Notes: generated by a model from the letters alone, not told the origin. A DNA stretch of 64,000 nucleotides from Parapedobacter defluvii (GCF_014642075.1 NZ_BMIK01000022.1:1-64000), one strand, 5' to 3'; shown: positions 2,881 through 9,120, numbered from the stretch's first letter. Numbers and translations: made by a program.

Positions 2881-4038
2881 TTGCGCCGAGTAATACCTGA
2901 TCTTGTTCGCTGGAAAACTTCATATAAGCACAGGTTTTATCACAGGATATTTATGAACAAGGTAATTTTTATTGCAAGCTTGCATAGACCTTTCAATCAA
3001 CAGCTGAAAACCACAAAGTGGGTTTGCAACTTTATTGCATCCAACAAAAATAATCTAAGCAGTTCTTATCTAAACCTGGGGTTTTATTATTACTTAATTA
3101 ATCTGCTTTATAAGGAATACAGCTTAGCAATCCCGGAAGAGTTTAACGGGCTACCTAGTGACGCTGCTATTTTCAACATCTATCAATATCTCAAGTCGAA
3201 AAAGAAAGAACAGTTTATTGCAGAGATTCCGAACATTATAAAGTCGAGGAAAACACCTTTGGAAAAGCAGATTTACTCTACTTATAAAGCAGCGTCCTAT
3301 TATATCAACCTTGCAAAGGATAAGTTCGGATTAATTAATGATAAGAATCAGCTTAGTTCTGATGGCTATTATCTGATAGGACTCCGGTCAAATTTTTACA
3401 GACTGTCCAGCCCGGAAAAAAAATTCTTTTTCAGAAAGATAATAGAAGCAGATTTTCACTTATTTATCACGCACTGCCTGTTCGCAAAACTGGAAAGGCG
3501 CTATGACTTGAAGCGGTCGATCGAAGACCAGATAGAATTCATTAATCAATTTTTATCCATTCGACATTTCAACTTCACTTCTGCTAGCCTAGAAAATTAT
3601 AATATTGTCCGCGGTTACTGGGCAGAAGCCCTAGGCGTTTTAGATTCCGCCTGTAATATCAAAAAGAAATATTTGGATATTATCACCAAGAATGAGAATT
3701 TCAGTAAATTATATGATGAAGTAACATCCTTATTTTCAATATTTGAAAAAGAAAATTTCCAGATTAAGAAAAAATATCTAAAAAATAAAAAGAAATTTTT
3801 AGATGGCTATAAAAAATGCCTTAAAACTAGCATCAGTGACCTTGGATTCATTAATTTATATGACATCAAGGCGACTATGCGCATTTCAACGGCAAACTTT
3901 CAGTTATTTCTCGACGATTTTTATGAATTGGAAAAGAATAACCTGAATCTTTTTTTCGGCAATACAGTAAATTCGATTGATAGGCGGGAACGATTTTTTA
4001 TCCGAGACCGACCGGTCATTAAAATTAAGATAAAATAA
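2881..4038 (+). CDS. Unknown basic protein, first gene of putative ATPase-nuclease-methylase system, 385 aa
   Basis: The frame opens at TTG 2881; an ATG at 2953 (FMNKVIFIASLH) is an equally likely start and would give 361 aa. No family is recognised. The protein is helical, rich in aromatic and Lys residues, with a very basic stretch (KKKYLKNKKKFLDGYKK) near residue 300, which suits nucleic-acid contact. No membrane segment or signal peptide is evident. It ends two bases before the ATPase start, so it is almost surely co-transcribed and perhaps translationally coupled. In the context of an ATPase, a nuclease and a DNA methylase, it could be a target-recognition or sensor subunit; this is inference from position only. 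Confidence 0.6.
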   Translation: MRRVIPDLVRWKTSYKHRFYHRIFMNKVIFIASLHRPFNQQLKTTKWVCNFIASNKNNLSSSYLNLGFYYYLINLLYKEYSLAIPEEFNGLPSDAAIFNIYQYLKSKKKEQFIAEIPNIIKSRKTPLEKQIYSTYKAASYYINLAKDKFGLINDKNQLSSDGYYLIGLRSNFYRLSSPEKKFFFRKIIEADFHLFITHCLFAKLERRYDLKRSIEDQIEFINQFLSIRHFNFTSASLENYNIVRGYWAEALGVLDSACNIKKKYLDIITKNENFSKLYDEVTSLFSIFEKENFQIKKKYLKNKKKFLDGYKKCLKTSISDLGFINLYDIKATMRISTANFQLFLDDFYELEKNNLNLFFGNTVNSIDRRERFFIRDRPVIKIKIK

Positions 4039-4040
4039 AT

Positions 4041-5558
4041 ATGGATACTTCAAATCTATGGGAACGCCTCCCGTTACCTAGCGACAGGTTGGCCACATTT
4101 AAAAAGGATATTGCTGAAGGCAAAGTACCTGAATTGCCTTTCTATATTATCGGTCAATTGAATTTAAAAAAGAGAGTGAAGGAACGTATTGAGCAAATCG
4201 ATTCTGCCCGTATGATTACCAATCTGATCATTGCAGAATATGGTAATGGTAAAACTAACCTGCTTAAATATCTTGAACTTTTTTACAACAAAATTTACCC
4301 TGATCTCGGAGTTTCTGTTCAATATTCAAGGGCGGATGTGGAACGGACTGATCTGGTTCTTTTCCTTCTGAAAATCGTTCAAGACAAATATTTACCAGAC
4401 TTGATTGATGGAGTTAAAGTAATCCGGGAAACGCCGGATGCTATCCCCGACTTGGTCAATAATTACCAAAGCAATTTCCGCGAGATCCAAGAATACACCT
4501 TGAAGTTATTCCTGCCGGAACATACCGACGAAGTAATTACTGAATTGCTTTACTTGGGAACGGGGAGGCTTTACAACAAAAGATACTTTGACAAATTTGG
4601 GTTGGAGCAATTAAAGGACTTCAACCGCCGTGAAATACTCGTGCTTTTCCTGAACCTTTTGTCTAGTCAATCAAAATATATAATTTTTGCTATCGATGAA
4701 ATTGAAAAGATAAGAGAAAAATCAAAAATCAGATTTAACCATTTCCTCACCTCTTACCGTGAGTTGGTCGATTTGCTTAACCAGATCAAAGGGCATTACT
4801 TATTGGTAAGCTTTACTGACAGTATTGGTTCGTCCGAAATAAGCACGGCCAATGACGCCCTTTATACGCGAATAAAAAATGACATTGTCAATATTGAGCC
4901 CTTAAAATCGAAAAGTGACATTATCGAATTGATCGAATACTTAAACGGGTTATTCGAAACACAGAAGGTCGCCGGTGACATTTACAGCGGCTTTATCAAA
5001 AAAGGTGCAACGAACAATCGAGTCGCCATCCAGGAAATCTCCAAATTGCTATATGAACAAGATCTCGACGAGTCTTTTGAAACCCAGCTGGAAAACGCGA
5101 AGCTGACCGAACTTTTCAAACAGACGGAAACCAAACTTGAGAACGACGAGGCATTTAAAAACCTGCATCGTAAATTCTTTGACCCCTTTGAATATTATAT
5201 TGATTCCCTAGGTTTAGATTCCGGAAATCTAAATAAACAGGACAGGATTTTTGTCGATCTTGCTACGGAAAAAGTTCATTATTTCATCTTCAATTCCTAT
5301 CTGGAGGACTTTGAAAACGAACGCATACGAATCTCCAACTTGTTAGCTGAATATCCTGGCTTCAATACTGTGGTTTATGCACCGGAAAAACTGGAACTAA
5401 CCCACAGCAAATTGAGTATAAGCTCTGACGATGACCTCGAAATTGTTGACGTTGATCCACGCCGCCTTTTTATCTTATTCGTTATTTATAGGGAAAATTA
5501 TGATTACCAGCCAGCTATAAGTGATATAATTTCCAGCTATACTAAAAGGAAACTCTGA
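4041..5558 (+). CDS. P-loop ATPase of putative defence system, 505 aa
   Basis: ATG at 4041. A Walker A motif of the AEYGNGKTN form lies near residues 66-72 (Lys71), and a Walker B (IIFAIDEIEKI) places Asp219-Glu220 after a beta strand. The YGxGKT variant is the one seen in BREX BrxD-like and related archaeal-type AAA ATPases that act on DNA, so a motor or regulatory ATPase is likely. The C-terminal 200 residues are helical and unassigned. The stop is followed two bases later by the next gene. Its neighbours, a PD-(D/E)XK protein and an adenine methylase, suggest it controls or powers a restriction-like complex. The ATPase call is firm; the BrxD relation is a resemblance of motif only. Confidence 0.8.
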   Translation: MDTSNLWERLPLPSDRLATFKKDIAEGKVPELPFYIIGQLNLKKRVKERIEQIDSARMITNLIIAEYGNGKTNLLKYLELFYNKIYPDLGVSVQYSRADVERTDLVLFLLKIVQDKYLPDLIDGVKVIRETPDAIPDLVNNYQSNFREIQEYTLKLFLPEHTDEVITELLYLGTGRLYNKRYFDKFGLEQLKDFNRREILVLFLNLLSSQSKYIIFAIDEIEKIREKSKIRFNHFLTSYRELVDLLNQIKGHYLLVSFTDSIGSSEISTANDALYTRIKNDIVNIEPLKSKSDIIELIEYLNGLFETQKVAGDIYSGFIKKGATNNRVAIQEISKLLYEQDLDESFETQLENAKLTELFKQTETKLENDEAFKNLHRKFFDPFEYYIDSLGLDSGNLNKQDRIFVDLATEKVHYFIFNSYLEDFENERIRISNLLAEYPGFNTVVYAPEKLELTHSKLSISSDDDLEIVDVDPRRLFILFVIYRENYDYQPAISDIISSYTKRKL

Positions 5559-5560
5559 TA

Positions 5561-7303
5561 ATGTTCGACAACACGGGTAATATATTCCTTTCTAACTACG
5601 AAGTACAGTTAGATGATATCATCGGAGCGTTATGTGATATTTCGTTCGATATTGGCATACAGCTCGAAGAAGTCATCGAGTTGACCAATAAAGAAAAGGG
5701 CTTTTCTATTGTTGATCTTTTCAAAGAGGATTTTGTTAAAGCTATATCTAATATCAGAATTGAATCGTTAGTGGACCAAACCACAGAAGAGGGAACAATT
5801 CCAGGCTATACCAATCAGGAATTCTTTTCCTATATAGCAGATCATTATAATAAGACACTTTTTTATGATTCGGGCTTCCTTGTGGCACTTGAAGGCTCGG
5901 ATATCTTACTGGTAGATAAAGAAGCTACTACGTTTTTAGGTTTGGGCGATAAATCGAAAGAACGACTTATCCCAGCTCTGAAAAATACAAAAATTCTGAA
6001 AAAACTGATCACAAACCTAAAGAGCGATAAGATCCAGCGCAGCCTTCAGAAAATTGACGCATTCGAAAACGATATATTTTATCGGAATACGATTAAAGCG
6101 ATAAAACAGGAAGGTCAGCCATTGCTGCCATTTATTAAGCTGGCTTTCTTGAATGAAGCAATAACCGATATTAGTAAAGTAGACACCGGTAATTATTGGA
6201 TCAATACTACAGCCTACCTGACCCGTCATGGTATTGATCTTACCGGCGATGAAGAGTATTATGTTATGACGGACAAGGATAATGGCAGAACACTCGGTTT
6301 AGTCATCAAGGATAATCTACTGCCGTATGCTAATGTCGATTTAGCAAATTACGTGAAGGCGGATCAATTATATAATTATTATTGGCTACTGCTTAAATAT
6401 ACGTACAGCGCAAAGCCCGCCCCAGTAGCGGCAGGTGCCGACGAGGAGCTTGATGAGTTTAAAGCGTTAGTAGTCGACCCGCAATTAAATCAATTGCTGT
6501 CAAACCTTAAAAACAACTTTTACATTAAGGACAAAACCAAAATCAACGAGAAATTTTTAAAGTTCTTTAATGATGTGGTTATTCTCGAAAAACTTGACTT
6601 TCTTGAAAGCTACTCGTTTTTAATGTCTTCCAACCATGAACAGGAGACAGCTTTAGGTGTATATAATAGTGAAAAGATCGGTACAAGTTATAACTTACTG
6701 CACTGGCTTAATCATAAAGGGGACAAAAAGGTTAATCACTTCCGCAGTCCGGTTCCCGTTGAGAAAAACAAAACCATCATTCATACCCTAAAACCCGCGA
6801 TCTGTTACTATTTCCTTGAGAAGTATTTCGAAGATCTTTTTGAACATCTGTTAAACGCTAATCATTATGCATATCTGGTTAACCGGAGATTACTGGATAA
6901 AAACGAGCTATTCTGCGAAATCGATTTTTTAGTACGAACCGAACAGAAGTTCTATTATTTTGAAACCAAAACGAAACTGTCCAAATTCTACATCGACGAC
7001 TTTTTGAAGAAGGTGTCCAAAATGATTGATAAGTTCAAACCAATGACAGATAGAGGTATTGAGATTGAATTTGTCTTGGTTGGCGGCTATAGTGATCCCA
7101 ACGTAAGTGATTATCAATATTTCATTACCAACAATGAAAATAAAGAAGGCGTGATTTATAACACAGCAAGGGCGACACTTAACACGAAACCCTATTATTT
7201 TAATGTTCCGGTTCCCGACAAAGAAGGAAAAGAAATCATTTGTATCGCCGAGCCAGAATACGATAACCTTCAAAATCTTGTAAGATCTATATGCCCGAAA
7301 TAA
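5561..7303 (+). CDS. Large protein with C-terminal PD-(D/E)XK nuclease signature, 580 aa
   Basis: ATG at 5561, two bases after the ATPase stop. The N-terminal 400 residues are not recognised. Near the C-terminus the sequence reads CEIDFLV (Asp455) then YYFETKTK (Glu468, Lys470), the D-x(n)-E-x-K spacing of PD-(D/E)XK nucleases, with a following helix (FLKKVSKMIDKF) as the fold expects. This makes it the likely DNA-cutting subunit. It overlaps the methylase start by 13 bp, which points to coupled expression of cutting and modification. No signal peptide or membrane segment. The nuclease is inferred from motif and order; fold prediction would be decisive. Confidence 0.7.
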   Translation: MFDNTGNIFLSNYEVQLDDIIGALCDISFDIGIQLEEVIELTNKEKGFSIVDLFKEDFVKAISNIRIESLVDQTTEEGTIPGYTNQEFFSYIADHYNKTLFYDSGFLVALEGSDILLVDKEATTFLGLGDKSKERLIPALKNTKILKKLITNLKSDKIQRSLQKIDAFENDIFYRNTIKAIKQEGQPLLPFIKLAFLNEAITDISKVDTGNYWINTTAYLTRHGIDLTGDEEYYVMTDKDNGRTLGLVIKDNLLPYANVDLANYVKADQLYNYYWLLLKYTYSAKPAPVAAGADEELDEFKALVVDPQLNQLLSNLKNNFYIKDKTKINEKFLKFFNDVVILEKLDFLESYSFLMSSNHEQETALGVYNSEKIGTSYNLLHWLNHKGDKKVNHFRSPVPVEKNKTIIHTLKPAICYYFLEKYFEDLFEHLLNANHYAYLVNRRLLDKNELFCEIDFLVRTEQKFYYFETKTKLSKFYIDDFLKKVSKMIDKFKPMTDRGIEIEFVLVGGYSDPNVSDYQYFITNNENKEGVIYNTARATLNTKPYYFNVPVPDKEGKEIICIAEPEYDNLQNLVRSICPK

Positions 7304-8355
7304 AACTACCTATTACAAGATATTATGGTTCAAAACGTAAGTTAGTAGGACGTATTTGGAATGAAATTGAAAACCTTGGTTTAGAATTTGATTCCGTGCT
7401 CGATCTGTTCGGAGGTACGGCTATTTTTTCTTATTATTCTAAGGTTAAGGGCAAACAGGTTACCTATAACGATATATTTAGTTTTAATACGGCTATTGGT
7501 AAAAAATTGATTCAGCATAATTCTAACGAATTAACTTATGAAGAAGCCATCTCGCTTTTAGAACCTCAGCAGGGATATCCCTATCAAAAAATTATTCAGG
7601 AAAACTTTCAGAATATATATTTTACAGATACAGAAAACAGGCAGATAGATATTTTTATCCAAAATGCAAACCTGCTTGAAAACGAGAATAAAAAACTGAG
7701 TGCCTATTATATCCTATTCCAGTCCTGTATTATAAAAAGGCCATACAATTTATTTCACCGGAATAATTTGAGTATGCGGCTTAACTATAATGGAGGCAGC
7801 TTTGGCAACAAAAAAACCTGGGAAAGAACCTTTGAGGAACTTTTTTTACGCTTCCTCAACGAATTGGATGAATTTACGTTTGATAATGGGCGTAATAATT
7901 TAGCCGTCAACTTCAGCGCTGCAGATTGTTTAGAGACAGCCGATCTCGTTTATATTGATCCGCCATATTTCAGCTCCAGCCGCAATCATACGACCTATCA
8001 CTCTAAATACCATTTCTTGGAAGGATTGGCTAACTATAATCGTATCCTTGAACACATCAATCATACAAAGAATAACAGGGAAATCACTATCAATAAAAGC
8101 GATCAATTTGAAAAACCTTCTACATTTTTAACAGAATTGGAGCAATTGATTCTGCGCCATAACGAATCAATTATTGTAATCTCTTATCGTAACAATGGGA
8201 TCCCAAGTGTGCAATCTATAAGCGACCTGTTGGTGCGGTGTAGACCAGACCGACAGGTCTTTACTTTAGATTTAGGTCTGTATGGCTATGCTCTAAACAA
8301 AGGAAACCAATTTAATAATGAGTTTTTGATTATTGGGACCAACGACCCTATTTAA
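7291..8355 (+). CDS. D12-class DNA N6-adenine methyltransferase, 354 aa
   Basis: ATG at 7291 inside the end of the preceding gene. Class D12 (Dam-like) features are in order: an N-terminal YYGSKRKL segment, the SAM-binding DLFGGTAIF motif, an acidic residue in TYNDIF, and the catalytic DPPY in LVYIDPPYFSS. The length is slightly greater than Dam (about 280 aa). It would methylate adenine in a specific sequence, protecting host DNA from the linked nuclease. It is the last gene of the operon; base composition rises towards the chromosomal average just after its stop. Methylase identity is firm, target sequence unknown. Confidence 0.9.
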   Translation: MPEIKLPITRYYGSKRKLVGRIWNEIENLGLEFDSVLDLFGGTAIFSYYSKVKGKQVTYNDIFSFNTAIGKKLIQHNSNELTYEEAISLLEPQQGYPYQKIIQENFQNIYFTDTENRQIDIFIQNANLLENENKKLSAYYILFQSCIIKRPYNLFHRNNLSMRLNYNGGSFGNKKTWERTFEELFLRFLNELDEFTFDNGRNNLAVNFSAADCLETADLVYIDPPYFSSSRNHTTYHSKYHFLEGLANYNRILEHINHTKNNREITINKSDQFEKPSTFLTELEQLILRHNESIIVISYRNNGIPSVQSISDLLVRCRPDRQVFTLDLGLYGYALNKGNQFNNEFLIIGTNDPI

Positions 8356-8624: not shown

Positions 8625-8843
8625 TCATTCAAGAGTTTTCTTTGCGTTTAATACGGCCTCGTAATCCTCCAAAAAGTTCGACATTTGTAAAGTTCCCTCT
8701 ACCAAAGGAAGCCGGTCAAGAAATTGATCGGCTTTATTTTTAAACCGAAAACCATGTTTACCGTTTACGTATTGCATTCCGAAAAGTACGGCAAAATCTA
8801 TATTGGATATACCTCCAACCTGCAAGAAAGGCTGAAATCCCAC
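8625..8843 (-). CDS. Possible C-terminal remnant of an unknown minus-strand gene
   Basis: A minus-strand frame ends at 8625 with a protein-like tail (ADQFLDRLPLVEG ... FLEDYEAVLNAKK) and is followed by a good terminator, as a real gene end would be. Its upstream part runs antisense through the GIY-YIG remnant, so only the part below about 8750 can be genuine. No family is recognised. Confidence 0.25.
   Translation of the reverse strand: MGFQPFLQVGGISNIDFAVLFGMQYVNGKHGFRFKNKADQFLDRLPLVEGTLQMSNFLEDYEAVLNAKKTLE
8711..8742 (+). terminator. Hairpin followed by T-rich tract, plus strand
   Basis: GCCGGTCAA and TTGATCGGC form a 9-bp stem with one G-T pair and a 4-nt loop, followed by TTTATTTTTA. 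It ends 12 bases before the GIY-YIG start and could end transcription coming from the island. It also overlaps the doubtful minus-strand frame at 8625. Confidence 0.4.
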
Positions 8844-8897
8844 AACGAGCTCGGAAAAAAGGGCTGGACAGTCAAATTCAGGCCGTGGACACTTGTG
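8754..8897 (+). pseudogene. GIY-YIG nuclease, truncated
   Basis: ATG 8754 opens a typical small GIY-YIG protein: VYVLHSEKYGKIYIGYT contains the YVL...YIG core, followed by the Arg in NLQERLKSHN and the conserved FRPWTLV. After residue 48 (base 8897) the family pattern stops abruptly; the expected helix with the catalytic Glu of the second half is missing, and the frame continues into antisense of another gene remnant. Normal members have about 80-100 residues. It is therefore a broken gene whose 3' half was lost at a junction at about 8898-8904. Confidence 0.75.
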
Positions 8898-8904
8898 TGC
8901 TCAT

Positions 8905-9046
8905 CAATGCACGCCGCGCTGGTTGCGCTTAATAAGGAAAGAAATCCTTCCGATGGCCCCCGTGCAGCCTCGCAAACGGGACAGGTCGGGCAATCGGTGC
9001 TTTTATCATACGTATGCCCGGCGGCACAAACTTTCATCCGTTTCAT
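8905..9046 (-). pseudogene. RNA polymerase alpha C-terminal-domain-like small protein, truncated and frameshifted
   Basis: From ATG 9046 the minus strand encodes KVCAAGHTYDKS, a CPTCPVC zinc-type knuckle and EGFLSLLSA. This is the start of a small Bacteroidota protein that normally continues PARRAL... into an RpoA-CTD-like helix-hairpin-helix. Here an extra A at about 8923 shifts the frame; reading across it restores PARRAL up to 8905, after which similarity ends. The helix-hairpin-helix half is gone. It converges on the truncated GIY-YIG gene, and both end at the same point. Family assignment is from memory. Confidence 0.65.
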
Positions 9047-9120
9047 CAGAACATAATTATTGATCTATAGCCTGTTTTAGCGGCATCAATGAATGCGTTA
9101 CAGTTTGCCTTTAAAGGTCT

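Follow-up and report, generated by a model that had tools for sequence, protein, structure and literature searches.

A conserved four-gene operon of Parapedobacter defluvii predicted to encode an ATP-dependent restriction-modification system whose type IIS-like specificity module is a subunit of its own

Do four closely packed genes in a 64,000-nucleotide stretch of Parapedobacter defluvii DNA (the window) form a restriction-like system whose composition has no name? This had been proposed by an original prediction, which described an unknown protein, a P-loop ATPase, a PD-(D/E)XK protein and a D12 adenine methylase. All four open reading frames of the operon were confirmed in the window, each on the plus strand. 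Gene 1 (2953..4038, 361 aa) encodes a protein predicted to be all-helical, with winged-helix-like lobes, which we propose as the specificity (DNA-recognition) subunit. It is followed by gene 2 (4041..5558, 505 aa), for a BrxC/BrxD-like P-loop ATPase, by gene 3 (5561..7303, 580 aa), whose product has an N-terminal half at about residues 1-270 and a predicted C-terminal PD-(D/E)XK nuclease at about 410-580, and by gene 4 (7291..8355, 354 aa), for a D12-class N6-adenine DNA methyltransferase. The packing is as tight as had been described, with 2-base gaps at 4039-4040 and 5559-5560 and a 13-base overlap at 7291-7303. The gene 1 reading frame is present as predicted, and the TTG at 2881 that had been taken as its start is probably unused: relatives align from 2953, and in one of them (L014) a stop codon lies directly upstream of that point, so translation probably starts at the ATG at 2953. 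Consensus scans for promoters and terminators of the operon returned matches at chance level, which are uninformative in either direction.

Do the four genes belong together? Among 84,980 species genomes, a scan that queried with the ATPase profile and alignment yielded 13 loci; since it relied on two short conserved ATPase peptides, distant members may have escaped it. All four genes are present at 13/13 loci (a contig end truncates gene 1 in L016 and gene 4 in L023), which excludes chance. Gene order and direction are kept in 12 of them; the exception is Sphingobacterium haloxyli (L015, the same place as L008), where the methylase is inverted and closes a different set of genes. The same four-gene set was thus found to co-occur in other genomes, and the objection that the genes do not co-occur failed: the four genes are a real operon and one unit. 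The hosts fall into at least three phyla, with Algoriphagus, Flavobacterium, Chryseobacterium, Pedobacter, Sphingobacterium and Bacteroidales among the Bacteroidota, relatives of Sulfurovum in the Campylobacterota, and one metagenome-assembled genome of the Cloacimonadota. The lowest identity to the window is 33% for the ATPase, 30% for gene 1, 20% for the nuclease and, at operon loci, 43% for the methylase. Separate profile searches with genes 1, 2 and 3 found the same 6 of 300 genomes of the order, at adjacent places; one extra gene 1 match among these 300 genomes (G112, E 7e-4) was judged to be chance. In a sample of the class, 1/395 genomes carried the system, namely the source genome. The system is rare and patchy. 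No relative of the ATPase was detected in the plasmid collection or in IMG/VR, and none of the nuclease in the phage collection.

The ATPase motifs named in the original prediction are intact, with Walker A residues G68-N-G-K71-T72 and Walker B residues D219-E220 invariant in 14 ATPases. All 14 members are touched by the Pfam family BrxC_BrxD (PF10923; best E 2.2e-9), and the window ATPase itself lies under that family's cut-off (14.7 vs 22.2 bits). A profile alignment to true BrxD with hhalign gave E 4e-6 over the N-terminal, Walker A-containing part, and when the ATPase profile was searched across the phylum true BrxD was the only other match. McrB was not among the Pfam matches of the 14 members. 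Judged by sequence, gene 2 is probably a diverged BrxC/BrxD-type ATPase. The match across the phylum (G812, E 9e-4), whose true BrxD lies next to a helicase, was rejected as a member: it is distantly related but belongs to another system. L041:5761-11718 holds in a row an 800-aa protein, a true BrxD (PF10923, 510 bits) and a helicase-like protein near a contig end; no methylase is in view there, and the set is possibly BREX-related.

Gene 1, which had been described as an uncharacterised basic protein, has no family match in Pfam or PADLOC, and BrxA was never named in Pfam searches with all 14 members. Its AlphaFold2 model is confident (pLDDT 90). The top Foldseek rows include PaqCI (probability 0.96) and BrxA (0.75), none below E 0.05, and VIA-align gave Z scores of 9.1 for PaqCI, 8.9 for BrxA (rmsd 4.3 over 177 residues), 7.8 for FokI and 6.3 for N.BspD6I; each of the best structural rows is either BrxA or the recognition module of a type IIS enzyme. 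Values of 8-9 are modest, as helical proteins can reach such Z by chance; the recognition reading draws on the agreement of the top rows and on the neighbouring methylase, which independently points to type IIS. An hhalign comparison of gene 1 with the recognition part of FokI, made with an approximate FokI sequence, was not significant (probability 0.5%); its sole short alignment pairs the helix bearing the invariant N215/V219/W223 with FokI 221-243. PDB sequence searches with genes 1-3 returned nothing convincing. A kinship of BrxA with BpuJI and FokI has been reported from the BrxA structure (PMC9240713); according to a 2026 survey, BrxA-like proteins of the various BREX types carry two or three lobes of this sort (PMC12839542). 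This refines the earlier description: going by its modelled fold, which is akin to those of type IIS enzymes and BrxA, gene 1 probably encodes a DNA-recognition subunit.

A BrxA-like predicted fold beside a BrxC/D-like ATPase raises the question of whether the operon is a reduced relative of BREX, which would mainly block replication of unmarked DNA, its PD-(D/E)XK protein serving not as the main cutter but as a back-up or abortive effector. PD-(D/E)XK auxiliary effectors are indeed known in BREX (PMC12839542). However, the operon is without PglZ or a PglX-type methylase; the only PglZ domain of the genome lies on contig C4, the operon being on C22, and none occurs in the four-gene sets of the relatives. 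The nuclease, moreover, occurs at all loci, which would not be expected of an optional auxiliary. We consider this explanation unlikely, if the best of the alternatives. The earlier statement that the operon is not BREX thus holds for its composition, but two of its parts are probably BREX-related.

In gene 3, the catalytic residues Asp455, Glu468 and Lys470 are exactly as had been predicted and are invariant in 14 nucleases, as are E424 and E453. In the predicted structure (pLDDT 85), D455 and E468/K470 lie on neighbouring strands after the helix that bears E424, which is the PD-(D/E)XK order. NERD is the nearest Pfam family (9/14 members), and none of the 14 members matches McrC in Pfam. By structure, the nuclease half best matches the CRISPR ancillary nucleases Can2, Cdn1 and Card1, and then McrC (Z 8.7, rmsd 2.8, 124 residues), while a viral fold search returned nothing at E <= 0.001. 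The model thus supports gene 3 as a PD-(D/E)XK nuclease resembling Can2/Card1 and McrC. Such a likeness would also fit a sensor-type abortive system, in which a Can2/Card1-like protein, activated by a ligand or by the ATPase, degrades DNA broadly and the methylase serves only as host protection or as a regulator. Yet the N-terminal half of gene 3 yielded no CARF domain, the conserved set is without a nucleotide cyclase or CRISPR gene, and the nuclease core is common to many PD-(D/E)XK enzymes, including McrC and restriction enzymes. We regard an abortive sensor as improbable.

As predicted, gene 4 is a D12 methylase with a DPPY motif (PF02086, 54.7 bits vs a cut-off of 22). The PADLOC model MTase_II (PDLC03261) matches gene 4 at 4e-51 over its C-terminal half, and gene 4 is best matched by tandem methylases, in their C-terminal halves, that lie beside AlwI-type type IIS endonucleases on plasmids. 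Such type IIS systems use two methylase units, for the two strands of their asymmetric site (PMC12898733). Each operon here has one D12 unit; the genome has three further D12 places, all on other contigs than the operon. The putative DNA-reading stretch of gene 4 differs from that of the AlwI-type relative.

Do all four genes share one history? The identities of genes 1, 2 and 3 correlate with one another (Spearman 0.89-0.91), and those with the methylase are 0.77-0.79. In Pedobacter sandarakinus (L021), the core of genes 1-3 groups with L020 (100/100), whereas the methylase falls into the clade of the window (99/98), to which it is 71% identical, compared with 28-42% for the remaining genes. 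In S. haloxyli, too, the methylase lies outside the clade of its core. Co-variation of the core and displacement of the methylase indicate that genes 1-3 travel as one machine and that the methylase is exchangeable. Since gene 1 is not exchanged along with the methylase, the site read is probably identical or similar across the members. In the core tree the window groups with Algoriphagus and Flavobacterium; this crossing of families points to horizontal transfer.

The neighbourhoods of the operon differ between loci. Upstream in the window, on the same strand at 1178-2704, lies a gene whose 508-aa TPR product carries an LA2681-like HEPN domain at its C-terminus (PF18733, E 5e-74); it is not conserved at other loci and is likely a separate defence or toxin-like gene. 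An open reading frame at 8724-9056 begins like a GIY-YIG nuclease and continues with unrelated sequence, perhaps through a frameshift. Elsewhere the operon lies near a type I HsdR (L013), an HNH protein (L011) or a conjugative element (L025). Beside a Pedobacter copy, L010:13901-18975 is a small defence island with a SIR2-domain protein like ThsA/Dsr2, an HsdM and an open reading frame that reads like HsdS. At L022:11436-15432 (minus strand), genes for Tn7-like transposition, namely TniQ and a Mu-type transposase, directly adjoin a Sulfurovum copy, which a Tn7-like element may therefore carry as cargo. A second, conserved-looking set surrounds a related D12 methylase in Sphingobacterium (L008:7415-12290, minus strand) and Rhizobium (L026:7905-13135). 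It includes a Ham1-type NTP pyrophosphatase fused to a P-loop domain like that of nucleotide kinases, a protein annotated on the Rhizobium plasmid as GHMP/RFAP-synthase-like, and small unknown proteins; PADLOC found nothing in it beyond a weak dCTPase match. In Sphingobacterium, the methylase of this second set stands in for the operon's own. Copies beside conjugative (L025) or transposition (L022) genes would suit a mobile-element or genome-maintenance module whose methylation times replication or transfer, but this is the least probable of the alternatives, as a very patchy spread (6/300 in the order, 1/395 in the class), changing neighbourhoods with other restriction genes and a tree across families are typical of defence modules.

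What, then, would the system do? A predicted restriction-like system of unnamed composition stood as the best reading, genes 1-3 having matched no known system in PADLOC and the four genes having been found together elsewhere. The computed results, namely the conserved linkage, the intact catalytic residues, the family and fold assignments and the exchange of the methylase, are consistent with an ATP-dependent, multi-subunit restriction-modification system against foreign DNA that has a detached type IIS-like specificity subunit, a reading that we hold to be reasonably probable. From them we infer complex formation, an asymmetric site, one-strand marking and cutting, as follows. Gene 4 would methylate adenine in a short, probably asymmetric host site, probably on one strand, and gene 1 would read the same site when unmethylated, via its type IIS-like helix-turn-helix lobes. 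Gene 2 would assemble on the gene 1-DNA complex and spend ATP to license or translocate, after which gene 3 would cut DNA lacking the adenine mark with its PD-(D/E)XK domain; the N-terminal half of gene 3 probably docks to the ATPase, as McrC does to McrB. Marking of one strand would leave one unmarked daughter after replication. Type III systems, and likely BREX, handle such a daughter by NTP-driven communication between sites (PMC12707154), and communication of this kind would fit the ATPase here. Restriction is also favoured by neighbours that include type I restriction genes, a SIR2 protein, HEPN, and Tn7-like and conjugative genes. On the other side, the Can2/Card1 likeness of gene 3 could mean a signal-activated effector, the structural matches of gene 1 are modest and its sequence comparison with FokI non-significant, and the window ATPase scores below its Pfam cut-off.

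The system would be a variant of restriction-modification and, should it mark one strand and depend on ATP, may form a class of its own. More tentatively, and on balance doubtfully, this class could be defined by a freed type IIS-like specificity module, a BrxC/D-type ATPase, a separate nuclease and one-strand marking of an asymmetric site; if so, the operon would be a surviving intermediate that links simple type IIS enzymes to machines of the BREX kind. A system of this kind bears on how a detached sequence reader works together with an ATPase and a nuclease, and on the role of BrxA in BREX. With its BrxA/FokI-like predicted reader and obligatory nuclease, the four-gene set is small enough for direct purification.

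How does the operon compare with known systems? Genes 1 and 2 have no model match in PADLOC-DB 2.0.0 at E up to 1, and gene 3 matches only CARF_PDDEXK at a chance-level E of 0.036, so no model of that database fits genes 1-3 and a known system did not account for them. No description of the four-gene composition was found in a literature search that lay mostly outside subscription papers and preprints. The claim that the operon is not type I is borne out, since none of the four genes matches the HsdR helicase, HsdM or HsdS in Pfam or PADLOC. With the type IIS enzymes FokI, AlwI and PaqCI the operon shares the modelled recognition fold of gene 1, and gene 4 most resembles methylases of the AlwI type, in their C-terminal half. 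Unlike in those enzymes, the recognition-like fold and the nuclease are in separate proteins at all loci, an ATPase is present, and there is one methylase unit rather than two. LlaJI demonstrates that NTPase machines of the McrBC kind can read unmodified asymmetric sites (PMC12707154). The nuclease half of gene 3 matches McrC in structure, whereas the ATPase is BrxC/D-like in sequence with no McrB among its Pfam matches, and LlaJI differs by its B3 reader domain and its second methylase. On the Lactococcus plasmid pTR2030, LlaI combines three restriction genes, of which one bears a nucleotide-binding motif, with a methylase like that of FokI; compared by description, its tandem methylase and McrB-like GTP-binding protein are unlike the four-gene operon. 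With BREX, finally, the operon would share a BrxA-like predicted reader fold, a BrxC/D-like ATPase and, by prediction, an adenine mark, but a D12 methylase (PF02086) replaces the PglX type, PglZ is missing, and a PD-(D/E)XK nuclease is found at every locus. Such a combination would support a recognition part common to BREX and type IIS restriction, an idea that came from the structure of BrxA alone (PMC9240713).
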